Notes: generated by a model from the sequence alone, not told the origin. 64,000 bases of DNA from Nocardia amikacinitolerans NBRC 108937 (GCF_001612615.1 NZ_BDAU01000001.1:310001-374000); one strand, 5' to 3'. Positions 22,608-52,774 are shown, counted from the first letter of the stretch. A program made the numbers and translations.

Positions 22608-24086
22608 TCATCGTGTCGCGGGCGGCGCGCCGAGGAAGGCGGGCACGCAGACGACTCGGTTCCGCGCCCGCCGCGCGACCGTCTCGCCGAATCTCCCGTT
22701 CGGTGCCGCCTCGGCGGCGCGCACGGGCGCCGGCCCCACGATCACGTGTGCGTTCGTGCCGATGATGCCGAACGCGCTCACCCCCGCCAGCGGACCGGAA
22801 TCCTCCGTCGACCAGCGCGCGGTCTCTCCAGACACCCGAATGTCCGTGCCGTCGAGCGTGATTCGCGGATTCAACGTGCCGAAATGGACCAGCGGCGGTA
22901 CGACACGTTCGCGCGCGCACAGCAGCGCCTTCACCAGGCCGACAACACCGGCGGCCGCTTCCAGGTGCCCGAGATTCGTCTTCAACGTCCCCACGTGCAA
23001 CGCACGGCCACCGTTGCGGGCGCCGAGCGCGGCGACGATCGCGCTCATCTCGATCGGATCGCCCAGCGAGGTGCCCGTTCCGTGCGCTTCGACCACGCCG
23101 ATGTCGGCCGCCGAGCATCCGGCATCGGCCAGCGCCGCCTCGATGACGCGCTGCTGGGCCCGCGCGTTCGGCGCGGTGAAGCCCGACGAGCGGCCGTCCT
23201 GATTGACCGCGCTGCCGTGGATGACGCCGAGGATCCGGTCGCCGTCGCGTTCGGCGTCCGCCAGACGCTTCAACACCACCGTCGCGCACCCTTCCCCGCG
23301 CACATACCCGTTCGCCCGCGCGTCGAAGGACTTGCACAGCCCGTCGGGCGCGAGGGTGCCCGTCTGCTCGATCAGGCGGGTCGAGTTCGGCGCCAGTACC
23401 AGATTCACGCCACCGGCGACCGCGAGCGCGCACTCCCCTCGGCGCAGCGATTGGACGGCGTGGTGGATCGCCACCAGCGACGAGGAGCACGCGGTGTCGA
23501 AAGCGATGGCGGGCCCGGTGAATCCGAAGGAGTAGGCGATGCGGCCGGCGGCGAAACTGTGGCCGTTGCCGAGCGCGGAGTGCGCGTCGACGTGCCGCCC
23601 CGACCAGTCGGCGTAGTCGAAGCGGCCGGTGATCCCGACGAAGGTGCCGATCGGCTCCTCGTGCGGCCCGTTCGGCTCCAGACCGGCGTGCGCCATGGCG
23701 TCCCAGGTCGTTTCGAGCAGGAGCCGATGCTGCGGATCGATCGACTGCGCCGCGCGCGGGCTGATGCCGAAGAACTCCGGGTCGAAGTGCAGCGCGTCCT
23801 CGATGAAGCTGCCCACGGTCGGCAGCCGGGTCCACTCGTCCTCGAAGGGCCAGCGGCGGTGGATCGGCATGTCCGCCACCAGGTTCCGTCCCGCGAGCAG
23901 CGCCGCCCACAGGCCTTCGAGGTCGGTGATGCCGCCCGCGAGGCGCAGACCGACACCGACCACCGCGATGGGTCCGGTCGCCGAGCGCAGGGTCAGCTCC
24001 TCGCGCAGTTTGCGGATCGTCTCGGTCGCGCGGCGCAGCGCGGCGTCGGCGGGCTGCGGCGCGGGCGCGAGGTCGGTGTCGTTCAT
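22608..24086 (-). CDS. Free-standing type I polyketide ketosynthase with N-terminal docking helix
   Basis: A 492-aa protein that is one complete ketosynthase (residues ~39-465) and nothing else: no AT, reductive domain or ACP. The catalytic triad is intact: Cys200 in DTACSSSLVAIH, His335 in VEAHGTGTSLGDP and His374 in LKTNLGHLEAAAG. Residues ~14-36 (DAALRRATETIRKLREEL) form an amphipathic helix of the kind used for docking to an upstream PKS. The last ~25 residues are non-homologous. The ATG at 24086 overlaps the stop of the 2074-aa PKS (ATGA), making it the last overlapping gene of the operon. It could do a final chain-chain condensation or release step (inference). Confidence 0.88.
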   Translation of the reverse strand: MNDTDLAPAPQPADAALRRATETIRKLREELTLRSATGPIAVVGVGLRLAGGITDLEGLWAALLAGRNLVADMPIHRRWPFEDEWTRLPTVGSFIEDALHFDPEFFGISPRAAQSIDPQHRLLLETTWDAMAHAGLEPNGPHEEPIGTFVGITGRFDYADWSGRHVDAHSALGNGHSFAAGRIAYSFGFTGPAIAFDTACSSSLVAIHHAVQSLRRGECALAVAGGVNLVLAPNSTRLIEQTGTLAPDGLCKSFDARANGYVRGEGCATVVLKRLADAERDGDRILGVIHGSAVNQDGRSSGFTAPNARAQQRVIEAALADAGCSAADIGVVEAHGTGTSLGDPIEMSAIVAALGARNGGRALHVGTLKTNLGHLEAAAGVVGLVKALLCARERVVPPLVHFGTLNPRITLDGTDIRVSGETARWSTEDSGPLAGVSAFGIIGTNAHVIVGPAPVRAAEAAPNGRFGETVARRARNRVVCVPAFLGAPPATR

Positions 24087-27000
24087 ATCGCTTCCTCTCG
24101 GGTGGGGGTCGCGGCCGCCAGCCGCTCGCCGATCGCGCCGGACAACGCCTTGGTCGTTCCGTAGGTCCACAGCACGGTCGCGGAAAGCTCGAGCCGGAAG
24201 GTGAATTCCAACTTGTTGCGCATCTCCAGACTCATCAGCGAGTCCAGGCCCAAGGTTTTGAGCGGCGTCGCACCGTCCAGACCGGCCGTTGGCATGCGCA
24301 GCACCTGCGCGGCGATTTCGGTGACTTTCGCGTGCACGAGCCGGTGCCGTTCGTCGCGGGTGGCGCGGGCGAGGGTGTCCAGGAAGTCGTGGGCGCCGGT
24401 GTCGCGGCCGCCGACCTCGGCGCTGTCCCGTAGGGCGCGCCAGCTCGACTGGGCCGCGCAGTCCGGGTAGGCGTCGAACCACTGCCGCCGGTTGAGCGAC
24501 AGGTATCCGACCACCGGGCGGTTCTCGCGCAGAAAGCAATCGAGTGCTTTCCAGGCGTCGGCGGCGCTGATGCCCGTGAGGCCGCGCGCCGCCAACCGGG
24601 CGCCCCTGTTGTCCCGCGTCGCCGCCAAGCCGATGTCCTCGAACGGACCCCACTGGACGCTGGTGCCTGGCCGCCCGTCCCGCCTGCGCGCGGTGGCCAG
24701 CGCGTCGAGATAGGCGTTGGCCGCCGCGTAGGCGCTCTGACCCGGGTTGCCGATCAACGCGGCGGCCGAGGAGAACAGCACGAACGCGTCGAGCGGATCG
24801 TCGGCGGTGAGCGCGTCGAGATGGCGGGCGCCGTCGATCTTCGGTCGCAGCACCCGCTCGATCTGCTCCGCAGACACCGTGGCGACGGTCGCGTCGTCGA
24901 GCACGCCCGCCGCGTGGAACACGCCGCGCAACGGCGGCAGCTCCGCTCGGACGGCATCGAGGACGGCGGCGAGCGCCGCGCGATCGGCGACGTCGGCCCG
25001 ATATTCGCGCACCACAACCGAATTGGGGTCGCGCCCCGAGTCGTGGATCGGATCCGACGACCTCGGCCCCGGATCGGAGGTGCCGCGGCTCACGAGCGCC
25101 ACCGCCCCCGCTCCGTGCGCGAGCAGGTGGGCGGCCAGACTGCGACCGAGCGCGCCGTGTCCTCCGGTGATCAGATACGTCCCGCCGCCGCGGAACCGGC
25201 CGTCGGGCATCGGCTCCGGAACGATGCTGTCGACTGTGCCCGGCCGAGTCAGTACGAGTTTGCCGACGTGGGTGCCGTCGGCCAGCTGTCGCAGCGCGCG
25301 CGGACCGTCGGCGAAGTCGTACACCGTCACCGGCGGCGCGGCGAGCCGTTTCGACACGACCTGGCGCCAGGTCTCACGCAACACCGTCGCGAAACGTTCG
25401 GGCCGTCGGGTCATGAGCCCGGCCAGATCGACCGCGCTGACCGTGATCCCCTTGGCGAAGGCGCCCAATCCGATCCTGCGGTCGGCGTAGATGTCCTTCT
25501 TGCCGACCTCGAGGAAGCGGCCGTCCTCGGCCAGTACGTCCAGGCCGCGGTCGATGGCCGCCCCCGCGAGCGAATTGAGCACGATGTCCACGCCGCGCCC
25601 ACCGGTCACCTCGCGTACGTCGTCCGGCCAGTCGGGCGAACGCGAGTCGAAGACGTGCTCGATACCGCACGTGTCGCGCAGGTACGCGCGGCGCCGCTCG
25701 GTGCCCGCCGTGGCGATCACGGTCGCGCCGACCGCACGGGCGACGCCGATCGCGGCCAATCCCAAACCGCCTGCGGCGGAATGGATCAGGATGGTGTCGT
25801 CGGCGGTTGCCGCCGCCAGCCGGACCAGTGCGTACCAGGCGGTGGCGGTCACGATCGGCAGCGCGGCCGCGGTCGCGGCGGGCATGTCGGCCGGTACGAC
25901 CGCCGTGTGGTCGGCGCGCACGGTCAGATGCGAAGCCAGCGAACCGAATCCGCAGGCGACGACCCGATCGCCGATCGCACGATCGCCGACCCCGACGCCG
26001 ACTGCGCGCACCACGCCCGCGCATTCTGCACCGAGCAACTCGCTGCCCGCCGAGTTGTCGGGATAAGCGCCGGTGGCTTTCATGACGTCCATGAAGTTGA
26101 GGCTCGCGGCCTCGACCTCCACCAGCACCTCACCGACGCCCGGCGCACGAATGTCCAAGGGCCGGAAGGACAATCCATCCCAGAACCGTCCCGGCGCCGA
26201 CCGGAGCAAGAAGGGCTGCGCCGCCGCGCGCAACGGCCGCGCACTCGTAGCGCCATCGGCCCGCGTCCCTTGTTCGAGCCGACCGACGTAGCGGCCGCCC
26301 CGGCGCAGCACCACTTGGTCGTCGCCCGGGGCGGCGAGCAGCTCGGCCGCGCACGCCGCGACACCCGCCCCGCCCGCCGGATCGAGATCGACGAGTTCGG
26401 CGGACAATTCGGGGTGTTCCCGGCGCAACACGCGCACGAATCCCCAGAACAGCGCGCCACCTGGGTCCGGACGATCCGCCGGTTCCGCGGCCTGGGCGTT
26501 CGCCGTCACCACGACCAGCCGGGCCGGTGTCGCCGTGGCATCGTGGAAGCGCCGCACCAGCGTCGCGAGTTCGGTCAACCCGTTGCGCTGAGCGTCGAGT
26601 CCGTCGCGGCCGGTCGGCGCCAGGAACACGACGGTCTTGCCCGCCCAGCTGGGCACCTCCGGCTCGACCGAGACCGCGGGTCCACCGGCGTCGCGCAGCG
26701 CCACGGACAATTCGGCATGCGAGTGCGCGGCACCGCTCAGCACGAAAGTGGCAGCGAGCGTGCGCTGTTCGCGCGGGACGGACCGAAAGGCCAGGATGAA
26801 CTCCCGGTCCGAACGACGCCCGCCGGTCCGTTCGCCCTCGATGGGATGCAGGTGCAGCCCGCCGATCCGAGCCAGCGGTGCGTGATCGTCGGCGAAGAGG
26901 TGAATGTCCACCTGGGTCTCGGATCGGCGCGACGCGTAAGCCCAGGCGGCATCGATGTATCCCGCCGGTTCACCGTAGAACCGCAACTCGTCGATTCCGG

Positions 27001-30000
27001 CGGGCAGCATCGTCCGCTCGTCGTCGAACAGTGCCAAGGCGGTCTGCAATACCCCGTCCAGCAGGGCGGTGTGCAGTTCCGCGCGGCCGGTCTGCGCGCG
27101 GCACTGTTCGCCGAGCGCGACCCGGCTCAGTGCGACCCGGAGCGCGCCGTCGCCACGGACCCGCAGCTCACGGATCACCTGGAACCGCGGACCGTAGTGC
27201 AGGCCGCGCCGCTCGCAGGCGCGATAGAAGTCGGCGACCGGCACCGGGTCCGCGTCGAGCAAGCCTGCGGGAAACGCGGCCGGTGCGTCCGTCGGCTCGG
27301 CAGACCGCTCGGCCTGGCCGCGCGCGTGCTCGACCCAGCCGTCGGCGTCGCCGGTCAGGGACGCGACCTCGAAGCTCGTTCGTGCCGCGATGTCGTCGCG
27401 CATGCTGACCTCCACGCGCACCGGCCGCACGCCGAGCACGAGGGTGTCGACGAACCGCAGATCGCACAGCGCGGCAGGCCAAGCGCCGAATCGCGCTCGC
27501 ACAGCGGCGATCACGAGCGCCGTCATCATCGCGGCGGGCGCGAGCACCGCGTCGCCGACCCGGTGGTCGGCGAGCCACCCCAACGCGCCGGACAGGTCCC
27601 CCACCCGCGCCAGCCAAGCGCCGGATTCCAGAGAACTCGGCGCCACCTCTACCCGCAAGGACTCGGTGGCGCGGCTTTCCGGTGCGATTGCCGAAGGCAG
27701 CCAATGGCTTTCGGGCTGGAACGGATACCGGGGCAGCCGCGCGACGTCGCGCGCCTCGACATCGGCGAACGGGAGAAGACCGGCGACGTAGGCCCGAGCG
27801 CGACCGCGGTTCATCTCGGCGACCGGATCGCTGTCCCGGTACAGCGACGGAAGAACCGCCGGTGGTCGCGGGCGCGTCGCGGCCAGTTGCTCCGCGGCGG
27901 GCAGCAGGACGGGATGCGGACTGATCTCGACGACGTGGGTGACGCCGTCGTCGTACAGCGCCGACATCGCCTCGGCGAAACGCACACGTCGACAAAGATT
28001 CTCGATCCAGTAGTCCCCGGTGAGATCCCGCGGCGTCACCTTGCGCACCGAGACGGTGGACATCATCTCGACGCGGCCAGGCCGGGGCGTGATGCCGGCC
28101 AGTTCGGACAGCAACCGCGGCCGCAGCACCGACATCCGCGGGCTGTGCGAGGCGTAGTCCACGTTGACCAACCGGCAGTAGGCGCCCTCGGCGGTCAGGA
28201 TCTCCCGCAGCGCTTCGATGGCGTCGGTGTCGCCGGAGAGCACGCAGGAGCGCGGGCCGTTGTGCACCGCAAGCGCGACCAGGTCCTCGAAACCCGCGAC
28301 GGCCGAAGCTATTTCGTCGATGCCGAGATCCACCGCCAGCATGCGCCCTGTTCCCGCGACGGTGCGCAGCGCGGCACTGCGGCGGGCGACGATCGTCGCC
28401 GCGTCGGCCATGCTCAGCAGGCCCGCGACGGTCGCCGCCGCGATCTCGCCCTGGCTGTGTCCGATGACGACGTCGGGTTCGATTCCAGCTCGCCGCCACA
28501 TCGCCGCGATGCCGCAAGCCAGTGCCCACAGCACGGGCTGCACCTGGTCGACACGGTCGAGCCAGCCCGCACCGCCCGCTCCGGTGACGATCGCCTTGGC
28601 GTCCCAGTCGACATGGGGCGCGAGTGCGGCGCAGCACGCGTCGAGCGCGTCGGTGAAGGCGGAGTCCACGCCGTACAACGCGCCCGCCAGCCCGTGCCAC
28701 TGACCGCCCTGACCGGGAAAGACGAACGCTACGTCGCCACGATCGGCGGCGCGGCCGGACAACACCGAAAGCAGTCGCGCCGACGGGTCTTCGGCGTGCG
28801 CTCGCAGTGCGGCGGCCAGTTCGACGGGATCCTCGCCGAGCACCGCGCTGCGCAACGGGTGCGCGGTGCCGCGACGGGCCAGCGCGGCGATCACGGCCCC
28901 GGAACGCTCGGGTTCGCTGTCCAGCAGGTCGGCGATGTCGCGGCAGCGGCGGCGCAGCGCGTCGGGGGTATGGGCCGAGACCGGAAGGAAACCGAGGGCG
29001 GGCCCGGCGGAGACGTCCTCGACCACCGCATCGGCGGAGCGCAGGACGACATGGGCGTTGGTGCCGCCCCAGCCGAAGGAGTTGACGCCGATGTAGCACG
29101 GCCGGTCCGCGGGGAGCTCGATCGGCTCGCGAACGACACGCAGGTTCAGCGCGTCGAAGGGAATCTCGGGATTGAGTGTCTCCGAATGCAGGCTGGGCGG
29201 CACGCGCCGGTGCTCGAGGCACAGCACGGCCTTCACCAATCCGGCGATGCCCGCGGCCGCTTCCAGGTGGCCGATGTTGGTTTTGACCGACCCGATCGGC
29301 AGCGGCCCGTGTTCGGCGGGGCGGTCGGCGCCGAGGATCTCACCGAGCGCCAGCGCCTCGATCGGATCGCCTCGGCCCGTTCCCGTCCCGTGCGCCTCGA
29401 CGTAGGCCAGGTCGCCGAGGTCGACTCCGCTGGTGCGGTAGGCGCGGCGCAGTAGGTCGCGCTGGCCCGCCGGGTTCGGTGTGACCAGGCTGTCGCCGCC
29501 GCCGTCGTTGTTCACCACGCTGTCGAAGACGACGGCCCGCACCGGATCGCCGTCGGCGCGGGCGGCGCGCAACGGCTTCAGGTACACGGCCGCCACGCCT
29601 TCGCCGCGGACGAACCCGTCCGCACCGGCGCCGAACGCCGCGCAGCGGCCGGTCCGCGACAGACCGCCGAAGTGCGTGAGACCGATCGAGACCTCCGGCG
29701 CCAGAAGCAGATTCACGCCGCCGACGATGGCGGACTCGACATCGCCGGAGCGGATCGCCCGCACCGCGAGGTCCAGCGCCACCAGCGCCGAGGAGCAGCC
29801 GGTCTCGACGGTCATGCTCGGCCCGGTGAGCCCGAGGACATACGACACTCGCGAGGCGATCACATCGAGTGCCGTACCGACCAGGCTGTGCTGGCTGGCC
29901 CCGAGTTGCCGTTGCCTGCGCAGGATCTCGTAGTCGTGCCAGGACGCGCCCATGTAGACGCCGACGCGGTGACCACGCACCTCGGCCAGCGGAATACCGC

Positions 30001-30307
30001 CGTCTTCCATAGCGCGCCAGACCGTCTCGAGCATGATCCGCTGCTGCGGATCGATGTCGGCGGCTTCGCGGGGCGAGATGCCGAACAGCGCGGCGTCGAA
30101 CCGGTCGACGCCGTCGAGGAATCCGCCGACACCCTGAATGCGTTTCGATCCGTCCAGCGGCGCGTCGGCATCCCACCGCTCGGACGGCACGGGACGGATG
30201 GCGTCGCCGCGGGCCAGCAGCAACTCCCACAGCTCGTCGATGTCTTCGGCGCCCGGGAATCGGCCAGCCATACCGACGATCGCGATCGGCTCTCCGGTGT
30301 CGTTCAT
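24083..30307 (-). CDS. Type I polyketide synthase, KS-AT-DH-ER-KR-ACP (fully reducing)
   Basis: A 2074-aa single-module PKS. KS 7-425: Cys171 in ETGCSSALVAL (variant of DTACSSS), His306, His347. AT ~525-825: GHSQG with Ser618, and YASH at 718-721, the methylmalonyl-CoA signature. DH ~900-1190: His915 in HRVGDAVLAP (the usual Gly is Asp) and Asp1084. ER ~1370-1690: LNFMDVMKATGAYP, HSAAGGLGLAA and GKKDI, all intact. KR ~1705-1890: TGGHGALG, B-type LDD, Tyr1860. ACP ~1990-2062: Ser2023 in LGLDSLMSLEMR. Domain order and length resemble the iterative mycocerosic-acid-synthase-type enzymes that make methyl-branched chains. There is no docking region at either end and no thioesterase. The ATG at 30307 overlaps the FAD-enzyme stop. 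Confidence 0.92.
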   Translation of the reverse strand: MNDTGEPIAIVGMAGRFPGAEDIDELWELLLARGDAIRPVPSERWDADAPLDGSKRIQGVGGFLDGVDRFDAALFGISPREAADIDPQQRIMLETVWRAMEDGGIPLAEVRGHRVGVYMGASWHDYEILRRQRQLGASQHSLVGTALDVIASRVSYVLGLTGPSMTVETGCSSALVALDLAVRAIRSGDVESAIVGGVNLLLAPEVSIGLTHFGGLSRTGRCAAFGAGADGFVRGEGVAAVYLKPLRAARADGDPVRAVVFDSVVNNDGGGDSLVTPNPAGQRDLLRRAYRTSGVDLGDLAYVEAHGTGTGRGDPIEALALGEILGADRPAEHGPLPIGSVKTNIGHLEAAAGIAGLVKAVLCLEHRRVPPSLHSETLNPEIPFDALNLRVVREPIELPADRPCYIGVNSFGWGGTNAHVVLRSADAVVEDVSAGPALGFLPVSAHTPDALRRRCRDIADLLDSEPERSGAVIAALARRGTAHPLRSAVLGEDPVELAAALRAHAEDPSARLLSVLSGRAADRGDVAFVFPGQGGQWHGLAGALYGVDSAFTDALDACCAALAPHVDWDAKAIVTGAGGAGWLDRVDQVQPVLWALACGIAAMWRRAGIEPDVVIGHSQGEIAAATVAGLLSMADAATIVARRSAALRTVAGTGRMLAVDLGIDEIASAVAGFEDLVALAVHNGPRSCVLSGDTDAIEALREILTAEGAYCRLVNVDYASHSPRMSVLRPRLLSELAGITPRPGRVEMMSTVSVRKVTPRDLTGDYWIENLCRRVRFAEAMSALYDDGVTHVVEISPHPVLLPAAEQLAATRPRPPAVLPSLYRDSDPVAEMNRGRARAYVAGLLPFADVEARDVARLPRYPFQPESHWLPSAIAPESRATESLRVEVAPSSLESGAWLARVGDLSGALGWLADHRVGDAVLAPAAMMTALVIAAVRARFGAWPAALCDLRFVDTLVLGVRPVRVEVSMRDDIAARTSFEVASLTGDADGWVEHARGQAERSAEPTDAPAAFPAGLLDADPVPVADFYRACERRGLHYGPRFQVIRELRVRGDGALRVALSRVALGEQCRAQTGRAELHTALLDGVLQTALALFDDERTMLPAGIDELRFYGEPAGYIDAAWAYASRRSETQVDIHLFADDHAPLARIGGLHLHPIEGERTGGRRSDREFILAFRSVPREQRTLAATFVLSGAAHSHAELSVALRDAGGPAVSVEPEVPSWAGKTVVFLAPTGRDGLDAQRNGLTELATLVRRFHDATATPARLVVVTANAQAAEPADRPDPGGALFWGFVRVLRREHPELSAELVDLDPAGGAGVAACAAELLAAPGDDQVVLRRGGRYVGRLEQGTRADGATSARPLRAAAQPFLLRSAPGRFWDGLSFRPLDIRAPGVGEVLVEVEAASLNFMDVMKATGAYPDNSAGSELLGAECAGVVRAVGVGVGDRAIGDRVVACGFGSLASHLTVRADHTAVVPADMPAATAAALPIVTATAWYALVRLAAATADDTILIHSAAGGLGLAAIGVARAVGATVIATAGTERRRAYLRDTCGIEHVFDSRSPDWPDDVREVTGGRGVDIVLNSLAGAAIDRGLDVLAEDGRFLEVGKKDIYADRRIGLGAFAKGITVSAVDLAGLMTRRPERFATVLRETWRQVVSKRLAAPPVTVYDFADGPRALRQLADGTHVGKLVLTRPGTVDSIVPEPMPDGRFRGGGTYLITGGHGALGRSLAAHLLAHGAGAVALVSRGTSDPGPRSSDPIHDSGRDPNSVVVREYRADVADRAALAAVLDAVRAELPPLRGVFHAAGVLDDATVATVSAEQIERVLRPKIDGARHLDALTADDPLDAFVLFSSAAALIGNPGQSAYAAANAYLDALATARRRDGRPGTSVQWGPFEDIGLAATRDNRGARLAARGLTGISAADAWKALDCFLRENRPVVGYLSLNRRQWFDAYPDCAAQSSWRALRDSAEVGGRDTGAHDFLDTLARATRDERHRLVHAKVTEIAAQVLRMPTAGLDGATPLKTLGLDSLMSLEMRNKLEFTFRLELSATVLWTYGTTKALSGAIGERLAAATPTREEAI

Positions 30308-31686
30308 CCGACCTGCCTCCTGGCGAGCAGCCCGCGCTCCCCCGGCGTCAGCGGCGGTTCGGTGGGCGGCGCGCACCGCGGGCGGCGCACGGCCCCCGAC
30401 AGCACCGCGGGATGGGCGAGCAGCGACGGAGGACGGGCCAGGAACATGACCTCGATCAGCCGCGTCCCGAGCTCCGGGCGTTCCGATGCGGCGCGCAGCA
30501 GCCGATCGCCGTACCGCTTGCCCGCTCGGTCGACCCAGCGTGGACGCGCGCCGGTGGTGTTCGGGTAGTGCAGGTCCTGGCCGATCGCGGTCAGCCACGG
30601 ATAGTTCGCTGCGCCGGTGACGGCGCGCTGCAACCTGCGGGAATCCGGCGCGCCGCGTGCGACCGCTCGACGCAGCACGCCCGCGCAGCGTGCGGCGGCG
30701 GAAAGACCGTGGCCGTAGGTCGGATTCAGCGCCGTGGCCGCGTCGCCGATCACCACGAACCCCGAGGGCCATTCCCGCAACCGGTCGAAGCGATGCCGCC
30801 GGTTGACGGTGCTGCGGGAACGCTGGATCGAGGACAGCGGCGCGGCGTCCGCGATCAGCTCACCGATCAGCGGCGCGCGCACCCACCTGCGGGCCGCTTC
30901 GCGGAACTCGTCCTCGTCGGCGGGCAGGCGGCAGCCACGGGTGCCGCCCACGGTGACGAGCCACCGGCCGTCCTCGATCGGCAGCAACAGCGCGTTGTAT
31001 TCCGGTCTGCCGGAGGCCGGATGGGCCTGCACGATGACCATCGGGAAGCCGGTCTCCGCACCGGGCAGCGCGCGAAACTCCCGCGTGGTGTAGGTGTGAC
31101 CGGAGTCGACGATCTCCGGCGGCGCGATGGTCGTTCCGAGACTCGCCAGCCATTCGACGGTCCGCGAACCCCGGCCGGTGGCGTCGATCACCAAACTCGC
31201 GTCGAGCCGTTCGGTCTCGTCGTCGGGCGTACGCGCCTCCACGCCCGTGACCGCGCGCGCGTCGCCGAGCAAACGCACCGCCGCGGTCTCGGCACGGAAC
31301 TCGACATTGGGCCACTGCCGCACCATGTCGTAGACGACGTGGTCGAGCAACCGCCTGCTGCAGGTCAGGCCGTACCGGCTCGTCGGATACCGCGGCATCC
31401 ACCCGCCGGCACCGGAATACAGCAGCAGGTCGGCGTTCATGCCGACGCGGTGTGCGCCGGCCAGGACCAAGCGCTGGGTGAGACCCGGCAGCAATTCCTC
31501 GGCGACGGCGACGCCGCCGGGGACGAACAGGTGCGGGTGGCGCGCCTGGGGCACACCGCGGCGCAGCGCGGGCTGTTCCGGGAACCGGTCGCGTTCGAGC
31601 ACGCTGACGTGCTCGACGTACGGCGCGACGGCCGCCGCCGCCAGCAGCCCGGCGAAACCGCCGCCGATGACCACCACGTGACTCAT
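30304..31686 (-). CDS. FAD-dependent oxidoreductase/monooxygenase
   Basis: A 460-aa flavoprotein. An N-terminal Rossmann motif VVVIGGGFAGLLAAAAVAPY is followed by VLERDRFPEQPALRRGVPQ-type residues (a conserved Arg and Gln near the flavin), the DG-like VIDATGRGSR and the second FAD motif GFVVIGDAATALNPTYGHG with SAA. The pattern places it with aromatic hydroxylase/halogenase-like group A flavoproteins; the halogenase WxWxIP motif is absent. It probably oxidises the polyketide or a precursor. The ATG at 31686 and the stop both overlap neighbours. Confidence 0.85.
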   Translation of the reverse strand: MSHVVVIGGGFAGLLAAAAVAPYVEHVSVLERDRFPEQPALRRGVPQARHPHLFVPGGVAVAEELLPGLTQRLVLAGAHRVGMNADLLLYSGAGGWMPRYPTSRYGLTCSRRLLDHVVYDMVRQWPNVEFRAETAAVRLLGDARAVTGVEARTPDDETERLDASLVIDATGRGSRTVEWLASLGTTIAPPEIVDSGHTYTTREFRALPGAETGFPMVIVQAHPASGRPEYNALLLPIEDGRWLVTVGGTRGCRLPADEDEFREAARRWVRAPLIGELIADAAPLSSIQRSRSTVNRRHRFDRLREWPSGFVVIGDAATALNPTYGHGLSAAARCAGVLRRAVARGAPDSRRLQRAVTGAANYPWLTAIGQDLHYPNTTGARPRWVDRAGKRYGDRLLRAASERPELGTRLIEVMFLARPPSLLAHPAVLSGAVRRPRCAPPTEPPLTPGERGLLARRQVG

Positions 31687-32543
31687 GCGGCGTCCTTCCA
31701 CCGGAAGTTCGCCAATCGCACGGCGCCGCACCAGGATCGGGAGCGTTCGGGCCGACCGCGGAGTCCGGTCTCCGGCACCCACCGCCAAGGGCCGAACTGC
31801 AGCGGCGCCCGCTTCCATCGCGCGGCCGCGCGGAACGTCGAGCGGGCCACGTCGACCGACCAGCCGTCGTAGAAGTCCAGGGTGGCCGCGAAACGCCAAC
31901 GCGCGGAGCCGAGCTGGCGGCCCATCGTCAGATTCACCGCGCGCAGCATCACGGGCGACCAGTGGTCCATCACCCACCAGCGAATGCCACTATCCCGCAA
32001 TGTGTCCGACAGCGCGCGGACCTGCCGCGGTTCGAGGTAGGGCAGCAGCCCTTCGGTCAGCACGAGCGCCGAGCGCGCGCCCGCGGTGGCCTCGGCGAGG
32101 AACTCCGCGCACGCGGTCCGGTCGGTGACGTCCACGGCGCGAGTTCGTAAGCGGCAGTGCGGATCACGGTCCGCCAGCTGGGCCGTCTTGTACGCGATCA
32201 ACTCGGTCAGATCCGCCTCGTGCCAGGTGAGCTCGCCGGGCAGGCGCAGCCGGTAGGGGCGCGTGTCGAGGCCGGCGCCGAGATTGATCACCCGATCGCA
32301 CCCGCGGGCCAGCGACTCGATCACGATGTCGTCGACGAGCTTGGTCCGGACGACCGTCGGCCAGTGGTTGCGCGCCCCGGGAGGCAGGATGTTCGACGAG
32401 ACCAGGCTCTCCCCCGCCGACCCCGCGAGGGTGGCCGCGAGGGGGTCGTCGAACAGGGCGTCCGGCCGTGCCGATTCCATGGCCCGGTACACCGCGACCC
32501 AGCGCGCGGTCTCGGAAACGTCGCGGATCGACGGCGTGGTCAT
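31683..32543 (-). CDS. SAM-dependent methyltransferase, LCMT/TIGR00027-like
   Basis: A 286-aa class I methyltransferase of the leucine-carboxyl-methyltransferase-like family common in mycobacteria: SETARWVAVYRAMESARPDA with LFDDPLA near the start, the SAM motif VINLGAGLDTRPYRL, the acidic post-II residues HEADLTELI and LVLTEGLLPYLEP. It most likely methylates an oxygen (carboxyl or enol/hydroxyl) on the polyketide, as the position within the operon implies. The ATG at 32543 overlaps the BVMO stop; its own stop overlaps the FAD enzyme start. Confidence 0.88.
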   Translation of the reverse strand: MTTPSIRDVSETARWVAVYRAMESARPDALFDDPLAATLAGSAGESLVSSNILPPGARNHWPTVVRTKLVDDIVIESLARGCDRVINLGAGLDTRPYRLRLPGELTWHEADLTELIAYKTAQLADRDPHCRLRTRAVDVTDRTACAEFLAEATAGARSALVLTEGLLPYLEPRQVRALSDTLRDSGIRWWVMDHWSPVMLRAVNLTMGRQLGSARWRFAATLDFYDGWSVDVARSTFRAAARWKRAPLQFGPWRWVPETGLRGRPERSRSWCGAVRLANFRWKDAA

Positions 32544-34069: not shown

Positions 34070-34644
34070 GCTTGTCCCCTCCCGCGCAGTATTCGCCACC
34101 GTCCCCGCGGCGCCGGGTGGTCGTGCGGCGGCGCGGGAGCGGTGGATTGCTGGGCGCTCATGAGCAACCCGGTGAGCTGGTCCGCGAAGAGGTCGGCGGT
34201 GTCGAAGTCCTCGCGGGTCATGAGTTCGTTGACGACGCCGCCGACCACGTCGGGTGGCGTGATCTCGAGCAGTGTCGCGATCACCGCGGGATCGAGGTAC
34301 GGCGCCGCGTCCGCGAGCACCTCCGGTCGCACACCGGTCAGCATCGCGGTCGATTTCGCGCCGCGGCCCGCCAGCACCCCGCCGCTGAGCGCCCGGCCGA
34401 GCATGCGCGGCGGCAGGACACGGGTCGCGAACGGGACGCCAAGCCGCGGCGGCGCGAGCCTGCCGAGCCGGATGACCCGCCGATAGGACTCCGGGTACCG
34501 GCCGTGCAGGTAGCGGGCGATGTGCTCGCGTAGCGCCGCGATCTCGCGCGCCCCAAGGGGTTCCAGATAGTCGATGCGCTCCACCGGAACATGCAGCAGG
34601 ACGGCCAGTTTCCGCAGCTGGGTCGCGGTCGCGCGGTCGCTCAT
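34066..34644 (-). CDS. Unknown helical protein of the polyketide operon
   Basis: A 192-aa protein that I cannot assign. It is strongly helical: ATQLRKLAVLLHVPVERIDY, REIAALREHIARYLHGRYPE, a basic middle (RLGRLAPPRLGVPFATRVLP) and an acidic second half (DPAVIATLLEITPPDVVGGV, NELMTREDFDTADLFADQLT). The second half loosely recalls superhelical MgtE-N-like repeats, but not enough for a call. There is no signal or TM segment and no catalytic motif. The ATG at 34644 and the stop overlap both neighbours, so it belongs to the operon. Confidence 0.7.
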   Translation of the reverse strand: MSDRATATQLRKLAVLLHVPVERIDYLEPLGAREIAALREHIARYLHGRYPESYRRVIRLGRLAPPRLGVPFATRVLPPRMLGRALSGGVLAGRGAKSTAMLTGVRPEVLADAAPYLDPAVIATLLEITPPDVVGGVVNELMTREDFDTADLFADQLTGLLMSAQQSTAPAPPHDHPAPRGRWRILRGRGQA

Positions 34645-34871
34645 CGCCGCCTCCCCAGCAGTGCCACGCGCACCACGACGCGGGCGCCCCACGGCATGCG
34701 CTGGAGCCGTTCGCGCAGCTCGGTGTCCGCCGCGGCGCGATCCCGCTGCGGCGCGCCGTGGACCAGCATGAGCAGATCGGCGAGCCGAGCGGGGCTCAAC
34801 TGCCGAAGAGCGGGCTGGTCCACACCGAGCGCCTGCTCGAATGTGGTTCTGGTATCACTGATTTCGGTCAT
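34641..34871 (-). CDS. Small unknown protein of the polyketide operon
   Basis: A 76-aa protein, acidic at the N-terminus and basic at the C-terminus (RMPWGARVVVRVALLGRRR). A GAGGGA Shine-Dalgarno lies just before the ATG at 34871, 9 bp after the metallophosphoesterase stop. Its stop overlaps the start of the 192-aa gene, suggesting the two products act together. The helical segments PALRQLSPARLADLLMLVHG and ADTELRERLQ give no family assignment. Confidence 0.65.
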   Translation of the reverse strand: MTEISDTRTTFEQALGVDQPALRQLSPARLADLLMLVHGAPQRDRAAADTELRERLQRMPWGARVVVRVALLGRRR

Positions 34872-34880: not shown

Positions 34881-35807
34881 TCACTTGCCGACCGAGGCAC
34901 GGCGGGCCATCGAGCGCGCCAGCCGCACAGCCCGGTCGGCGGAGCGCCGACCGAGACCACCGGCCGGACGCGCGAGGTCCGCGGGCTCCGGAACGATCTG
35001 GCGCAACAGCGGATCGGGCAGGCCACGCGTCCGCCATTCGCGCGGATAGCCGACGGAGACCTCCTCGAACCGCACTCCGTCGAAGTAGTCGGTCCTGCGA
35101 AGGTGCAGATGCCCGTACACCACGCACCGCACGTGGTAGCGGCGATGCCATTCGGCGGTGAGCTCGGTGCCGCACCACATCGCGAACTCCGCGCGCAGCA
35201 ACCGCTCGACCGGCCCGCGGATCAACGGAAAGTGGTTGATCAGCACCATCGGCACCGCGGGATCGAGGGCGTCGAGCCTGCGGCGCGTGTAGTCCACGCG
35301 CCGTCGGCACCACTCCTCCCTCGACTCGTACGGCGCAGGGTCGAGCAGCTGCTCGTCGGTCGCCACCGTGCCGCGGGCCTCGGCCAGCGCCAGGCCTTCG
35401 TCCTTGGTCCGCGCCCCTCGGGGCAGGAAGGTGTAGTCGTAGAGCAGGAACATCGGCGCGAGCACCGCCGGTCCGCCGGGACCCGACCACACCGGATACC
35501 GATCCTCCGGCGTCACCACATCGATCTCCCGGCATATCTCGACGAGGCGCCGGTAGCGTCCCTCACCGCGCTGCGACACCGGATCGCGCGCGGTGGTCCA
35601 TAGGTCGTGATTGCCGGGCACCCACACGACCTTCTCGAATCGCTCGCGCAGCGTGGACAGTGCGCGCCGCTGCGCTTCGGGCTTCTCCGCGACATCGCCT
35701 GCCACGATCAACCAGTCACCGCGCGACGTGGGCCGGATCCGGTCGAGCAGGTCCCGGTTGCCGGGATGACCGAGGTGCAGGTCGCTGACGGCGAGGACTC
35801 GACTCAC
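34881..35807 (-). CDS. Calcineurin-like metallophosphoesterase
   Basis: A 308-aa dinuclear-metal phosphoesterase. All five metal-ligand motifs are present: SDLHLGHPG (DxH), VAGDVAE (GD), VPGNHDLW (GNHD), LINHFPL (H) and VYGHLHLR (GHxH). It should therefore be active on a phosphomonoester or diester. GTG at 35807 starts directly before the first strand and overlaps the stop of a 24-codon ORF. Metallophosphoesterases are not usual members of PKS operons. It may remove a phosphate protecting group or act on nucleotide/CoA-type material (inference). Confidence 0.88.
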   Translation of the reverse strand: MSRVLAVSDLHLGHPGNRDLLDRIRPTSRGDWLIVAGDVAEKPEAQRRALSTLRERFEKVVWVPGNHDLWTTARDPVSQRGEGRYRRLVEICREIDVVTPEDRYPVWSGPGGPAVLAPMFLLYDYTFLPRGARTKDEGLALAEARGTVATDEQLLDPAPYESREEWCRRRVDYTRRRLDALDPAVPMVLINHFPLIRGPVERLLRAEFAMWCGTELTAEWHRRYHVRCVVYGHLHLRRTDYFDGVRFEEVSVGYPREWRTRGLPDPLLRQIVPEPADLARPAGGLGRRSADRAVRLARSMARRASVGK

Positions 35808-35878
35808 GACGTCGCCTCGCTGACGCTCGGTTCCGTCGTGCGCGAGGACGCCGGTGCCGACGGTGCGCTCGCACTCAC
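35804..35878 (-). CDS. 24-codon mini-ORF coupling the large PKS to the phosphoesterase
   Basis: GTG at 35878 overlaps the PKS stop (GTGA) and the TGA at 35804-35806 overlaps the GTG start of the metallophosphoesterase. The 24 residues are Ser/Ala/Pro/Thr-rich with no domain. It may be a true micropeptide, a translational relay that carries ribosomes between the two genes, or chance. Confidence 0.3.
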   Translation of the reverse strand: MSASAPSAPASSRTTEPSVSEATS

Positions 35879-38800
35879 AGGACCGCCCCGCTGACGGCGC
35901 CGATCCGGCCGACCGCGGTGGTGAGCCGTCGCAGCAGATCCTCGGGGACCACGCGATCCTCGTGCAGCGCTGCCAGCCGATCGAGCAGCATCTCCACCTC
36001 GGCGACGATCGGGTCGCTGAGTTCGGCGTCCTGCGGGGTGACCTGTTCGAGCACATGCCTGGCCAGCAGGTTCACCGTCGGGTACTGGAAGATCACCGAA
36101 TTCGCCAGCTTCACACCGGTCATCGCGCGCAGGTGCGCCCCGAGTTCGATGGAACTGAGCGAGTCGATGCCCAGCTCGGTGAATTCGCGATCCGGTTGCA
36201 CCGCATCGGGTGAGGAGTAACCGAGCACCATCGAGATCGGTGTCTTGAGCAACTCGACCACCACCTCGTGCTGCTCGGCCGGACTCAGGCCCGACAGCCG
36301 CTTGGCCAGTTGCGACGCGTCGCCCATCTGCTGGGTGGCGCGCGGCCTGGTGTGCAGCAGCGCACGGAAGAACGGCGGCAGTTCGGCCACCGAGGCGGCC
36401 ACCCGCAGCAGCGACAGGTCCATCCCGATCGGCAGCACGTTCGGCCTGCCGGTGCTCAGCGCGGCGTCGAACAGCGCGAGCGCTTGTCCGGTCGGAATCG
36501 GGGTCACGCCCATCCTGCGCAACCGGGCTCGATCCTTCTCGTCGAGCTTGCCGGTGTTGGAGGTGTCCTCGGACCACCAGCCCCACGCCATCGACGTGGC
36601 GGGCAGTCCGCGGTGGTAGCGGTGCCGGGCCAGGGTGTCGAGGAAGACGTTCGCGGCGCCGTAGTTGGCCTGACCGGCGTTGCCGAAAGTGCCCGCGGCC
36701 GAGGAGAACAGCACGAACATCGACAGGTCCGCGCCTTCGGTCAGCTCGTGCAGGTACCACGCGCCGCCGACCTTCGCGGGCAGGACCGTGTCCAGGTGCT
36801 CGTCGGTGAGCGCGTCGAAAGCCGCGTCGGCGAGCGTGGCCGCCAGATGGATCACCGCGCCGAGGGGGTGTTCGGCGGGCACGGCGTCGAGCACCGCCCG
36901 CAAGGCGTCGCGGTCGCCGGCGTCGCACTGGGCGACCGTGACCCGTGCCCCCGCCTCGGCGAGTTCGGCGACCAGCTCGGCGACTCCTTCGGCGCGCTCG
37001 CCGCTGCGGCTGGTCAGTACCAGATGCCTCGCGCCGTACGCCGAGACCATGTGGCGGGCGATGATGGCGCCGATGGTCCCCGTGCCGCCGGTGATCAGCA
37101 CCGTGTCGTCCGGATCGAAGGGCCTCGGCCAGGTGAGCACCACCTTGCCGATGTGCTCGGCCTCGCTGAGATGCCGCACCGCGGTCGCGGCATGACGAAC
37201 GTCGAAGCGGGTCAGCGGAAGTGGCGCGAGATCGCCGCGCTCGAACAGGTCGGCCAGCTCGACGAGCAGACCGGCCAGCGTGTCCACCGCCAGATCGCCC
37301 AGTTCGAAGGAGGCGTAGTCGACTCCGTGCGCGGTACGCGCCTGGTCGGGATCACGGACGACGTCCCTGGCGATCTCCACGAATCGGCCGGAACCGCCGA
37401 GCAATCCGAGGGAGTGTTCGGTGAAGACGTCCGGCAGCAGGTCGAGCACGATGTCGAAGGCGCCCGCGTCGGCGAACCGCGCGGCGAACTCGCCGGACCG
37501 TGAGCTCGCGATCCGGTCGTCGCCGAAGCCCATGCCCCGCAACGCGTCCCACTTCGGCTCGGCCGCGGTGGCGTAGCTGTCCAAGCCCAGATGCGCGGCC
37601 ACGTTCAGCGCGGCCATACCGACGCCGCCGGTGGCCGCGTGGACGAGCACCTTCTCACCGCGACGGGCGCCCGCGACATCGCGCAACGCGTGCAGCGCCG
37701 TCACATAGCCGACCGGCGCGGCGGCCGCCTGCGCGAACGACCAAGAGGTGGGTACCGGGGCGAGCAGCCGCTGATCGACGACCGATGTCGCGGCGATCTC
37801 GTCGAACAAGCCGAAAACCCGTGCGCCGGGTGCGAATCGGGTGACGTCCGGCGCTGTCGCGACCACCACGCCCGCCGCTTCGTGCACCAGCCGAGCGGGT
37901 CGTCCGGCGGGTGCGTCGAGGCCGGTGAGCGCGACCGGGAAGGACAATCCGGCCGCGCGGACGGAGACGACGACGGTTCCCGGCGCGAGCGCGGAGTCGT
38001 CGGGTTCGGCCGACTCGGACAGCGCGATGTCGTCGAGATTGCCGGAAGCCGGGATCTCGAGCCGCCACGGGCCGGCGAGCCGGGTTCCTTGCGCCACCGC
38101 GGATTCGAGCCCCGAGCGGATCCGGCGGGCGTAGAAGTCCCCGCGGCGCAAGGCCAGCTCGGGTTCGTCGGTGTGCAGTGCCGCGGCGAGCCGCTCGAGC
38201 GAGATCCCGGTCTCGTCCACGTCGATCTGCACGATGCGGTCCTGATACTCGGACTGGGCGCTGCGCACCAGCGCCCAGACGGTCGCGCCGACCATGTCGG
38301 AGATGTCCTCGGCGGCGCCGACCGACTGCACGCCGCGCGCGAGGACCACCAGTTTCGTCTCGGTGAAGCGCTCGTCGGCGAGCCACGACTGCATCAGCTT
38401 CAGCACGGAGGCCAGTTCGGTGCGCACCATATCGTTCAGGTGCGCGCCCGGCTCACCGCCCGCGGACGCGGCCATGCGCGGCAGCAGCACGACCTTGGGC
38501 GCCGCGGCGCCCGCCGCCATGTCCGCGCGCAACGCGTCGAGATCGGGATACGACGGGAGTTCGGCCTCGCCTGCGATGCCGAGCGGAGGCTCTCCGACGA
38601 TCACCCATTCACCGTGGGCCGCGGTGAAGTTCACGCGCTGCACGGGAGTGGCCAACCACTCGACGCCGAACAACGAGTCCTGGCGTTCCGCAAGGCCTCG
38701 GGTGGCGAGCTTGCCGACCGACACCGACCGAACCTGCAACGTGCCAGCGGCGACCACCTTGCCGGTAGTGTCGGCCAGCACCCACCGCACCCGATCGGCA

Positions 38801-41800
38801 CCCGCCGGTGTCAGTTTGCAGCGCAGTGCGCGGGCGCCGACGGCACGCAACTCCACCCGTTCCCACGCGAACGGCAGGGCCAGGCTGCCCGGTTCCGACG
38901 GCAGCAGCGCCGCGGAGGCGGCGACGGACTGCATCGCGGCGTCCAACAGCGCCGGATGCAGGCCGAACTTGTCCGCGTCCGGCACCTGATCGGGCAGCGC
39001 GACTTCGGCGAACACGTCCTCGCCGCGCTTCCAGACCGCCTTCATGCCCTGGAAGACCGGACCGTACTGGTAGCCGAGGGCGGCCAGGGTCTGGTACGCG
39101 TTCGCGGGCTCGACCACCGACTGCGCGCCGACCGGCGGCCACAGTTCCAGGCCGGCTGCCTCGGTGTCGTCCGGCTCGGCGGCCGCGGTGAGCTGACCGT
39201 CGGCGTGCAGGCTCCACTCGACCTGACCCGGCGCCTCGTCGGTGTTCTCCGGCCGCGAGTAGATCGCGACCTTCCTGCGGCCGGATCGCTCGAGTTCGCC
39301 GACGGTCAGCTGGAGCTGTACCGCGCCTTCGGCGGGCAGGGTCACCGGCGTGTACATGGTCAGCTTCGCCACCCGAGGGGTACCGAGCTTGTCGCCCGCG
39401 TGCAGGGCGAGTTCGAGCAGCATCGCACCGGGAACGAGGACGTTGCCGTGCAGCGCGTGATCGGCCAGCCAGCCGTGCGTCGCCAGCGACAGCCGGGTGC
39501 TGAACAGGAACCGGTCGGCGCCGGGGTTCTCGGCGACGGCGCCGAGCAAGGGGTGCCCGGCATCGGCGAGGCCCAGCCCGCTCGGTTTGCCGCCGCCGGA
39601 ACCCGCGACGCTGGACAGCCAGTACTTCTGGCGCTGAAAGGCGTAGGTGGGCAACGGGACCGACCGCGCGGTGCCCGCCGGGTAGAGCAGCGACCAGTCC
39701 GGCGAGACGCCCTTGACGTGGGCTTCGGCGACCGAGGTGAGGAAGCGCTCCATGCCCGCGTCCTCGCGCTTCAGCGAGCCGACGATCAGGCAGGATTCGG
39801 CGAACGGCCCGACATGGTCGAGCGATTCGTGCACGGCCGAGGTGAGAACGGGATTGACGCTCATCTCGATGAAGGCGTTGTACCCGGATTGGAAGGCGGC
39901 CTGGAGTCCCTCGTCGAACTGGACGGGCTCGCGCAGGTTGCGGAACCAGTACTCCGGCCCAAGGTTCGCGGTGTCCAGCTCGTCGGCGGTCACCGTCGAG
40001 AAGAAGCGAATCGAGGACGAGCGCGGCGAGACCGAGCGCACGGCGTCCTCCAGCTGCTCGCGCAGCGGGTCCACGTGATCGGTGTGCGCGGCGTAGTCGA
40101 CCGGGATGACTTTGGCGCGCAATCCTTCTCGCTCCGCCGCCGCCACGACCCGCGCGACCGCGTCGGCCCCACCGGCGATCACCGTGGTGGAGGGCGAGTT
40201 GATCGCCGCGACATGGATGTCCTCGACGCCGCTCATCAGCTCGCGCACCCGCGCCGCCGGTGCGTTGATCGAGGCCATGCCGCCGGAACCAGGAAGCGCG
40301 CGCAACGGCTTGCTGCGCATGGTCACGATCCGCGCGGCGTCGGTGAGCGAGAGCGCGCCAGCCACGTAGGCCGCGGCCACCTCGCCCTGCGAATGACCGA
40401 GTACCGCTTCGGGTTCGATGCCGACCGACCGCCACAGCGCCGCGAGCGACACCATGGTCGCGAACAGCGCGGGCTGCACCACGTCGACACGGTCGAGTGT
40501 CGGCGCACCGTCGACCTCGTTCAGCACATCGGTCAGCGACCAGTCGACGAACTCGGCGAACGCTTCCTCGCAGGCGCGGATCTCGGCCGCGAACACCGGC
40601 GATTCGCGCATCAGTCGCGCGCCCATTCCCGCGTACTGCGCGCCCTGACCGGGAAACACGAAGCACACCCGGCGATCGGGCAGCGACTGCCCACAGATCG
40701 GGCCCACCGGCCTGCTCTCCGCCACCGCGGCGAGTCCGGCGAGCACGTCGACGCGATTGGCGCCGAGCACGACGGCGCGATGCTCGAACGCGGTCCGCGT
40801 CGTGCCGAGCGCGTAACCCAGGTCGTGCAAACCGAACTCGGGATGCTCCTGGATATGACGGGCGAGCGCGCCTGCCTGGGCGGCCAGGGCTTCCGGTGTC
40901 CGCCCGGAGACCGGCAACACGGCTATCGGCAACGCCGCGTCCTCGGTGGGTCGCGCCGGTTCGGCGGGCGCGGGCGGGGCCTGTTCGAGAATGACGTGGG
41001 CGTTGGTGCCCGCGATGCCGAACGACGACACGCCCGCCCGGCGCGGGCGATCCCGCTCGGGCCAGGCCACGGTCTCGACCGGGACCTCGATGGCGCCGCT
41101 CGACCAGTCGACGGCCGAGGTCGGCTCGGCGAAATTGACGGTGCCCGGCACGGCCGCGCGGCGCATGGACTCGACGACCTTGATGACGCCCGCCGCACCC
41201 GCGGCGGCCTGAGTGTGCCCGAAATTGCCTTTGACCGAGCCGAGCAGCAACGGCCTTCCGTCCGGGCGCCCCGGTCCGAAAGTGTCGAACAGCGCGGCCA
41301 ATTCGATCGGATCGCCCACCGGTGTTCCGGTGCCGTGGCCCTCGACCATGTCGATGTCCTCGGGCCGCAGATCGGCGTCGGCCAGCGCGGCGCCGATCAA
41401 TTTGCGCTGCGCCTCCGTGCTCGGGACGGTGAGCCCCTTCGTCGCTCCGTCCTGATTGATCGCGCCGCCGCGCAGGACGGCGAGCACTTCGTGACCGTTG
41501 CGCCTGGCGTCGGACAGCCGTTCCAGCACCAGCACCGCGACGCCTTCGGACATGCAGAATCCATCCGCGTCGGCGGAATACGGCCTGCTTCGCCCCTCCT
41601 TGGAGATGGCGCCGTGCTGCCCGAGCGCGTAGAACCCGGTGAGCGTGGACATGATCGAGACGCCGCCGGCCAGCGCGAGGGAGCATTCGCCGGACTTCAG
41701 CGCCCGCGCGGCCAGGTGCATCGCGACGAGCGAGGACGAGCAGGCCGTGTCCACGCTCATTGTCGGACCTTGCAGACCGAGGATGTAGGAAACGCGTCCC

Positions 41801-42276
41801 GACAGCACGCTCTGGCTGACGCCGAGCGACACATAGCCCGGGTCGAGATCCTTCTGTCCCGGAATGAGGTAGGCGTAGTCGCCGCCCATCGCGCCGATGT
41901 AGACGCCGGTGTCGCTGCCGCGCAGCCGATCGGCGTCGATCCGCGCGTCTTCGATTGCCTGCCAGGCGGTTTCGAGGACCATTCGCTGCTGCGGGTCCAT
42001 GGCCTTCGCCTCGCGCGGGCTGATTCCGAAGAACTCCGGATCGAATTGTCCAGGCTCATCGATGAATCCGCCCATCGGCGCCATCGCCGCGGCGACCTCG
42101 GGCGACGCCATGTCCGCCAGCTCCGTCATCGCCCTGTCGCCGGGAAATTTGCTGGAGGTGTGCTTTCCCGCGACCAGGAACTGCCACAAGGATTCCGGCG
42201 AATCGATTCCACCAGGAAACCTGCATGCCATTCCCACGATGCCGACAGAATCGTCCGAACAATAATCGCGCGCCAT
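35875..42276 (-). CDS. Type I polyketide synthase, KS-AT-DH-(ER)-KR-ACP with C-terminal docking region
   Basis: A 2133-aa single-module PKS, first gene of the operon. KS 10-430: Cys179 in DTACSSSL, His314, His354. AT ~538-840: Ser629 in GHSQG; the substrate motif is YAAH (728-731), close to the methylmalonyl YASH but not identical. DH ~905-1190: HALHGNVLVP (His940) and HPALLDAAMQ (Asp1112), intact. ER-like ~1420-1715: NADPH motif HAATGGVGMAA is present, but the LNFxDV and GKxD elements are lost. KR ~1724-1905: TGGTGTIG, Ser1858/1859, Tyr1872, LAD in place of LDD. ACP ~2005-2075: Ser2039. The last ~45 residues are helical (EVEMLLDRLAALHEDR) and look like a docking region. ATG at 42276 with a GGGGGCG-type RBS; the KS begins at residue 10, so no N-terminal docking helix. 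Confidence 0.92.
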   Translation of the reverse strand: MARDYCSDDSVGIVGMACRFPGGIDSPESLWQFLVAGKHTSSKFPGDRAMTELADMASPEVAAAMAPMGGFIDEPGQFDPEFFGISPREAKAMDPQQRMVLETAWQAIEDARIDADRLRGSDTGVYIGAMGGDYAYLIPGQKDLDPGYVSLGVSQSVLSGRVSYILGLQGPTMSVDTACSSSLVAMHLAARALKSGECSLALAGGVSIMSTLTGFYALGQHGAISKEGRSRPYSADADGFCMSEGVAVLVLERLSDARRNGHEVLAVLRGGAINQDGATKGLTVPSTEAQRKLIGAALADADLRPEDIDMVEGHGTGTPVGDPIELAALFDTFGPGRPDGRPLLLGSVKGNFGHTQAAAGAAGVIKVVESMRRAAVPGTVNFAEPTSAVDWSSGAIEVPVETVAWPERDRPRRAGVSSFGIAGTNAHVILEQAPPAPAEPARPTEDAALPIAVLPVSGRTPEALAAQAGALARHIQEHPEFGLHDLGYALGTTRTAFEHRAVVLGANRVDVLAGLAAVAESRPVGPICGQSLPDRRVCFVFPGQGAQYAGMGARLMRESPVFAAEIRACEEAFAEFVDWSLTDVLNEVDGAPTLDRVDVVQPALFATMVSLAALWRSVGIEPEAVLGHSQGEVAAAYVAGALSLTDAARIVTMRSKPLRALPGSGGMASINAPAARVRELMSGVEDIHVAAINSPSTTVIAGGADAVARVVAAAEREGLRAKVIPVDYAAHTDHVDPLREQLEDAVRSVSPRSSSIRFFSTVTADELDTANLGPEYWFRNLREPVQFDEGLQAAFQSGYNAFIEMSVNPVLTSAVHESLDHVGPFAESCLIVGSLKREDAGMERFLTSVAEAHVKGVSPDWSLLYPAGTARSVPLPTYAFQRQKYWLSSVAGSGGGKPSGLGLADAGHPLLGAVAENPGADRFLFSTRLSLATHGWLADHALHGNVLVPGAMLLELALHAGDKLGTPRVAKLTMYTPVTLPAEGAVQLQLTVGELERSGRRKVAIYSRPENTDEAPGQVEWSLHADGQLTAAAEPDDTEAAGLELWPPVGAQSVVEPANAYQTLAALGYQYGPVFQGMKAVWKRGEDVFAEVALPDQVPDADKFGLHPALLDAAMQSVAASAALLPSEPGSLALPFAWERVELRAVGARALRCKLTPAGADRVRWVLADTTGKVVAAGTLQVRSVSVGKLATRGLAERQDSLFGVEWLATPVQRVNFTAAHGEWVIVGEPPLGIAGEAELPSYPDLDALRADMAAGAAAPKVVLLPRMAASAGGEPGAHLNDMVRTELASVLKLMQSWLADERFTETKLVVLARGVQSVGAAEDISDMVGATVWALVRSAQSEYQDRIVQIDVDETGISLERLAAALHTDEPELALRRGDFYARRIRSGLESAVAQGTRLAGPWRLEIPASGNLDDIALSESAEPDDSALAPGTVVVSVRAAGLSFPVALTGLDAPAGRPARLVHEAAGVVVATAPDVTRFAPGARVFGLFDEIAATSVVDQRLLAPVPTSWSFAQAAAAPVGYVTALHALRDVAGARRGEKVLVHAATGGVGMAALNVAAHLGLDSYATAAEPKWDALRGMGFGDDRIASSRSGEFAARFADAGAFDIVLDLLPDVFTEHSLGLLGGSGRFVEIARDVVRDPDQARTAHGVDYASFELGDLAVDTLAGLLVELADLFERGDLAPLPLTRFDVRHAATAVRHLSEAEHIGKVVLTWPRPFDPDDTVLITGGTGTIGAIIARHMVSAYGARHLVLTSRSGERAEGVAELVAELAEAGARVTVAQCDAGDRDALRAVLDAVPAEHPLGAVIHLAATLADAAFDALTDEHLDTVLPAKVGGAWYLHELTEGADLSMFVLFSSAAGTFGNAGQANYGAANVFLDTLARHRYHRGLPATSMAWGWWSEDTSNTGKLDEKDRARLRRMGVTPIPTGQALALFDAALSTGRPNVLPIGMDLSLLRVAASVAELPPFFRALLHTRPRATQQMGDASQLAKRLSGLSPAEQHEVVVELLKTPISMVLGYSSPDAVQPDREFTELGIDSLSSIELGAHLRAMTGVKLANSVIFQYPTVNLLARHVLEQVTPQDAELSDPIVAEVEMLLDRLAALHEDRVVPEDLLRRLTTAVGRIGAVSGAVL

Positions 42277-52771: not shown

Positions 52772-52774
52772 CGG

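Follow-up and report, generated by a model that had tools for sequence, protein, structure and literature searches.

A putative Nocardia polyketide gene-cluster family: a possible three-protein core with exchangeable tailoring genes and a probable export operon transcribed divergently

A 64,000-nucleotide stretch of the Nocardia amikacinitolerans NBRC 108937 genome (NZ_BDAU01000001.1:310001-374000; hereafter "the window", in whose numbering coordinates are given) carries nine consecutive genes on its minus strand (42276-22608), encoding, in this order, a type I polyketide synthase (PKS) protein (PKS1), a metallophosphoesterase (MPE), two helical proteins (unkA and unkB), a Baeyer-Villiger monooxygenase (BVMO), a methyltransferase (MT), a flavin-dependent monooxygenase (FAD), a second PKS protein (PKS2) and a free-standing, or "lone", ketosynthase (KS). 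The locus is tentatively best explained as a member of a Nocardia gene-cluster family in which a three-protein core (PKS1, PKS2 and the lone KS) is combined with exchangeable tailoring genes and with a divergently transcribed export operon; we put the probability of this explanation as a whole, that is, core, tailoring, release or priming and export taken jointly, at about 0.45, its gene content, domain states and conservation being observed and the functions being read from the sequences.

The comparison set for the distribution of the cluster consisted of 150 Nocardia genomes, seven of which, the window's own included, encode FAD and MPE at cluster-level identity. All seven full clusters (the window, G222, G333, G312, G246, G164 and G194) show a common gene order accompanied by a divergent operon for an ABC ATPase, an FtsX-like permease, a lipoprotein and an SRPBCC protein, and, as the same order is seen in six other Nocardia genomes, the arrangement of the nine genes cannot be put down to chance. 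When 395 class-level and 399 order-level genomes were searched with FAD, matches outside Nocardia did not exceed 48%. A search with the lone KS, on the other hand, added three further relatives at 69-72% identity (G203, G299 and G247, the last a fragmented draft in which the PKS2 frame is broken, taken for gene order only) and a more distant one at 58% (G154). In G203 and G299, the genes for PKS1, PKS2 and the KS adjoin each other with none of MPE, unkA, unkB, BVMO, MT or FAD in between; since the trio is kept there without the other six genes, it forms the invariant unit, which suggests that, across the 150 genomes, no protein but PKS1, PKS2 and the lone KS is shared by every version of the cluster. 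Genes for an acyl-CoA dehydrogenase, a PhaC-like protein, a P450, a short-chain dehydrogenase/reductase and an LCM-type methyltransferase are the neighbours of the trio in these two genomes, and G203 also has a crotonyl-CoA carboxylase/reductase scoring above the curated cut-off, which, together with a standalone acyltransferase (AT)-like gene, precedes a KS-truncated PKS1, an arrangement (L216 5378-7575 and PKS1 from 7572) that suggests an unusual extender unit. The subtypes fall into separate groups in the lone-KS tree, the deepest forks of which are weakly supported. What such a family would offer is a set of natural variants in which core and accessory genes have already been split.

Within the window, the nine genes are coupled, mostly through ATGA/GTGA overlaps, just as the original prediction had described: PKS1/MPE and MPE/unkA are separated by 67 and 9 bp, respectively, and each of the next six junctions (six of the eight) is a 4-bp overlap of the ATGA/GTGA type. 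Its claim that a thioesterase, a reductase and an acyl-AMP ligase are all missing likewise held, none of these domains, the reductase being taken as a terminal one, being found in the nine genes using Pfam and NCBIfam; Pfam revealed no loading domain in the cluster either, nor was any acyl carrier protein (ACP) domain found outside PKS1 and PKS2, i.e., there is no discrete ACPX.

Domain motifs were aligned across nine clusters, namely, the seven full ones, G203 and G299. PKS1 (2133 amino acids; 35875..42276) is composed of KS, AT, dehydratase (DH), enoylreductase (ER), ketoreductase (KR) and ACP domains followed by a conserved C-terminal helical extension. Its ER (37135..37983), which was aligned to SpnB (3slk) and a second PKS ER, is catalytically degenerate: NFRD has turned into SFPV and the catalytic lysine is gone (GKTD in SpnB, ARDV in the window), and neither the NFRD/MYPG segment nor the GK lysine survives in any of the nine clusters. 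Module 1 should therefore leave an alkene, and PKS1 would make a methyl-branched enoyl unit. The HxxxGxxxxP motif of the PKS1 DH is kept in each of the seven full clusters, and its AT motif is variable (YAAH, VASH or CAGH); the PKS1 KS of G203 is largely missing, and in G299 the KS cysteine is replaced by glycine and the DH histidine by tyrosine. PKS2 (KS-AT-DH-ER-KR-ACP, 2074 amino acids; 24083..30307) lacks both an N-terminal docking helix and a C-terminal extension. Its ER (25247..26134), closest to that of MAS, is intact in the window (NF.D, GKKD and the NADPH motif), and these features are kept in eight of the nine clusters and degenerate in G203; its AT carries the YASH motif, which is of the methylmalonyl type, and PKS2 would add a fully reduced methylmalonyl-type unit. 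Thus, of the "two complete PKS modules" predicted originally, the domain content stands, but the ER of PKS1 is dead in all homologues, whereas that of PKS2 is intact here; similarly, the predicted short, reduced, methyl-branched, oxidised and methylated chain agrees with the YASH AT, the Lsd18-like monooxygenase, the BVMO fingerprint and the TIGR00027 assignment described below, except that "reduced" is only half right because of the dead ER. The mycobacterial MAS/Pks2-type methyl-branching PKSs share the fully reducing KS-AT-DH-ER-KR-ACP architecture as well as the closest ER, whereas the partners in the window cluster are a lone KS and a module with a dead ER, with no PapA or FadD among them.

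The lone KS (492 amino acids; 22608..24086) is a type I PKS KS whose Cys-His-His triad is kept in all nine aligned clusters, and it has a conserved N-terminal amphipathic helix of docking type (ALRRATETIRKLREEL; 23985..24050). Because the KS of PKS1 is dispensable while the lone KS is never lost, the latter most likely builds the chain in trans and is not the release enzyme; it would work with the core, docking by its N-terminal helix, probably onto the C-terminal extension of PKS1. This role is directly testable, as the PKS1 KS is live in some species and dead in others, and the lone KS is always intact.

FAD (460 amino acids; 30304..31686) matches Lsd18/MonCI over its whole length (E 9e-110, to 8up4, and 3e-97; 45% identity to Lsd18), the cluster sequences forming one clade in the tree. 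It probably works like an epoxidase and would oxidise the alkene surviving from module 1, most likely by epoxidation. This is in keeping with three of the four BVMO-containing clusters (G222, G333 and G312; the window is the fourth, and G246, G164 and G194 lack the BVMO), where an epoxide-hydrolase-like alpha/beta hydrolase gene with an Asp-nucleophile motif (VGWDWGA; PDB matches weak, best E 8e-12) sits right after FAD, between it and PKS2. That gene is not in the window cluster, and a search of the window's genome for an orthologue of the G312 copy gave only 38% matches. Among 20 non-Nocardia relatives of FAD that were inspected, just two had PKS genes within ~10 kb, and in the more closely viewed loci L179 and L187 (~9-13 kb; from Streptomyces-type and other actinomycete genomes) the Lsd18-like gene is found beside genes for an XRE regulator, an ImmA-like peptidase and a membrane protein, away from any PKS; neighbourhood alone is, for these reasons, no proof of epoxidation. 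The lasalocid and monensin clusters (Lsd18 and MonCI) also combine an Lsd18-type FAD monooxygenase with a type I PKS, and some members of the Nocardia family add the epoxide-hydrolase-like gene; yet FAD is 45% identical to Lsd18, as opposed to the 49-60% reported among polyether epoxidases, and the Nocardia cluster has only two modules, both epoxidase motifs altered (see below), no ACPX and no MonCII-type thioesterase. The BVMO (509 amino acids; 32540..34069), a Pfam match, bears the type I fingerprint FxGxxxHxxxW[P/D] (FAGPVIHSARWD) and would insert a further oxygen; it shares the fingerprint and the Rossmann motifs with pentalenolactone-type and steroid BVMOs, but its gene occurs only in one subtype of the cluster family. 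The MT (286 amino acids; 31683..32543), an S-adenosylmethionine-dependent LCM/TIGR00027 methyltransferase by score (108.7 bits against a cut-off of 93.55), would carry out an O-methylation.

Release is where the subtypes appear to part. The gene for a DUF4442 protein (158 amino acids; 22106..22582; 48 bits against a Pfam threshold of 25) starts 25 bp past the lone KS in the window and follows the KS in G333 and G247 as well. Its AlphaFold model (predicted local distance difference test score 82; predicted TM-score, pTM, 0.78) retrieved 1sh8 using Foldseek (E 1e-10) and shares its predicted fold with the hotdog thioesterases PA5026 and AziG and the MadB decarboxylase, although it is only about 14-22% identical to them in the fold alignments. 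Judging by this model, DUF4442 could serve in release or in making the starter: in the window's subtype it would hydrolyse the finished thioester or, alternatively, prime the first module. In G164 (L032 5622-12576), a gene for a PapA-like acyltransferase comes directly after the KS, followed by FadD-like, glycosyltransferase, FabH-like and P450 genes, possibly a lipid-conjugating variant; a PapA homologue acting in trans was considered for the window and rejected, as nothing in the window's genome matches the G164 protein well. Since release candidates differ among the subtypes, release would seem to depend on the subtype and not on the lone KS.

The MPE (308 amino acids; 34881..35807) had a single PDB match, 6UNC (E 2e-107), homologous to it over the whole length, which, from the residue numbering, we take to be M. 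tuberculosis PptH (Rv2795c): subtracting three from the 6UNC numbering places the Cys and His residues at 225, 246 and 248, as published for that enzyme. The equivalents of C225, H246 and H248 and the metallophosphoesterase motifs are conserved in all seven full clusters. MPE matches in the contig scan were mostly housekeeping PptH, copies of which are linked to pptT (within 700 bp at 72 of 80 loci), whereas the cluster copies form a clade of their own within a PKS operon and the MPE is not beside pptT; the other PptH copy of the window's genome is pptT-linked and lies on another contig. M. tuberculosis PptH strips phosphopantetheine from holo-carrier proteins, PKS13 among them, its physiological purpose being unknown (PMC8557913). 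The simplest reading is that the MPE would act on the carrier domains of the cluster, clearing or resetting blocked ACPs, and a PptH-type hydrolase inside a PKS operon, where candidate substrates are obvious, makes a concrete system for finding the role of such enzymes. A PptH-type gene was also seen in a Streptomyces PKS region (L104 9704-10840) together with phosphopantetheinyl transferase and thioesterase-like genes.

How the chain leaves could be explained in other ways. Release might not be the business of any cluster enzyme, the chain being freed by a type II thioesterase of the housekeeping kind or lactonising spontaneously once the epoxide opens, and DUF4442 serving as a MadB-like starter decarboxylase; that the cluster versions have no release gene in common, that no loading domain was found and that the malonyl-ACP decarboxylase MadB ranks with the best fold matches all fit, but hotdog thioesterases match the model as well or better and the fold alone is indecisive, which leaves this a rather doubtful, if serious, alternative. 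The original prediction offered DUF4442 or the lone KS as the unusual release route, and the former is plausible here, given its position and its thioesterase matches, albeit absent from other subtypes and perhaps just as well a priming decarboxylase, whereas the latter is unsupported, the lone KS having an intact triad and a docking-like helix and persisting beside KS-dead PKS1 proteins. The triad and the KS-dead PKS1 neighbours likewise make it unlikely that the lone KS resembles the KSX proteins of polyether clusters, taking over the finished chain at the last ACP to pass it on or release it; it is true that it is the sole non-modular enzyme common to every cluster version and that locus L198 of an unrelated genus likewise has PKS genes and an Lsd18-type enzyme with a lone KS, N-terminal helix included, nearby, yet no discrete ACPX-like acceptor is encoded, and the window's KS, tried as a sister of the L198 protein, turned out to belong to a different KS clade. 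The PptH paralogue, if dedicated to the carrier domains of the operon, could itself free the chain as acyl-phosphopantetheine by phosphodiester rather than thioester cleavage, for which its presence with PptH active-site residues in every full cluster and the fact that holo-carrier proteins such as PKS13 are substrates of M. tuberculosis PptH (PMC8557913) might be invoked; this is very unlikely, because the core persists in G203 and G299 with no MPE between its genes, and, moreover, the Streptomyces cluster mentioned above has thioesterase-like genes of its own and no precedent was found. Least probable of all is that a larger PKS cluster is decaying and the locus is what remains of it: the ER of PKS1 is dead and G203 and G299 have more dead domains, but all nine frames are open, the other domains retain their catalytic motifs and the order is conserved, with tight coupling, in seven species.

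The explanation preferred here, a core with exchangeable tailoring genes and an export operon, has its own difficulties. The DH motif of PKS2 deviates (HxxxG to HRVG[D/E]), and its activity is uncertain for that reason; either module could iterate; and the docking of the lone KS is a matter of sequence pattern. No DUF4442 gene is present in G222, G246, G164 or G194, and the G312 homologue is unlinked. Two motifs reported as conserved in polyether epoxidases, RKGxPQxRHxHxLWSxGA and AFNPxxGHGMSxxA (PMC10560226), are not matched by FAD: the window has RRGVPQARHPHLFVPGGV in place of the first, with FVPGG, FLAPGG or FLGPGG found throughout the seven clusters, and ALNPTYGHGLSAAA in place of the second. 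By these motifs, FAD is a divergent Lsd18/MonCI-type flavin monooxygenase outside the polyether epoxidase subfamily as defined. G203 and G299, on which the notion of the core leans, could be decaying clusters, although both have open frames and share their flanking genes. Finally, a limited literature search found no description or product of this Nocardia cluster and, within its limits, agrees with the original prediction that the locus matches no familiar one.

The divergent operon (plus strand) opens with the SRPBCC (Polyketide_cyc2) protein gene (42630..43166) and continues with a LolD/MacB-type ABC ATPase (43195..43890), the FtsX-like permease (43850..46382, the first coordinate being approximate as the start codon is not fixed) and a WKL-family lipoprotein (46401..46901); this set would export the product. 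A 7+7 palindrome in the divergent promoter region (GTGACTTcAAGTCAC; 42551-42565) was rejected as a conserved operator, as it is not kept in relatives, and a promoter/terminator scan turned up nothing. The helical protein unkA (76 amino acids; 34641..34871) was ruled out as a discrete ACP for want of the ACP serine motif, and unkB (192 amino acids; 34066..34644) has an all-helical, weakly MgtE-N-like AlphaFold model (pTM 0.53) without a significant match in the PDB. The two are also paired outside PKS contexts in related genomes, forming part of a wider actinobacterial gene pair in which unkB is about 405-425 amino acids long, the window's copy thus being a short member of its family. An MmpL-family transporter gene (13010-15097, minus strand) is situated ~7 kb from DUF4442, and, beyond the export block, positions 48955-53704 hold genes for the small and large subunits of a [NiFe] hydrogenase along with CobW/HypB-like and NifU-like genes.

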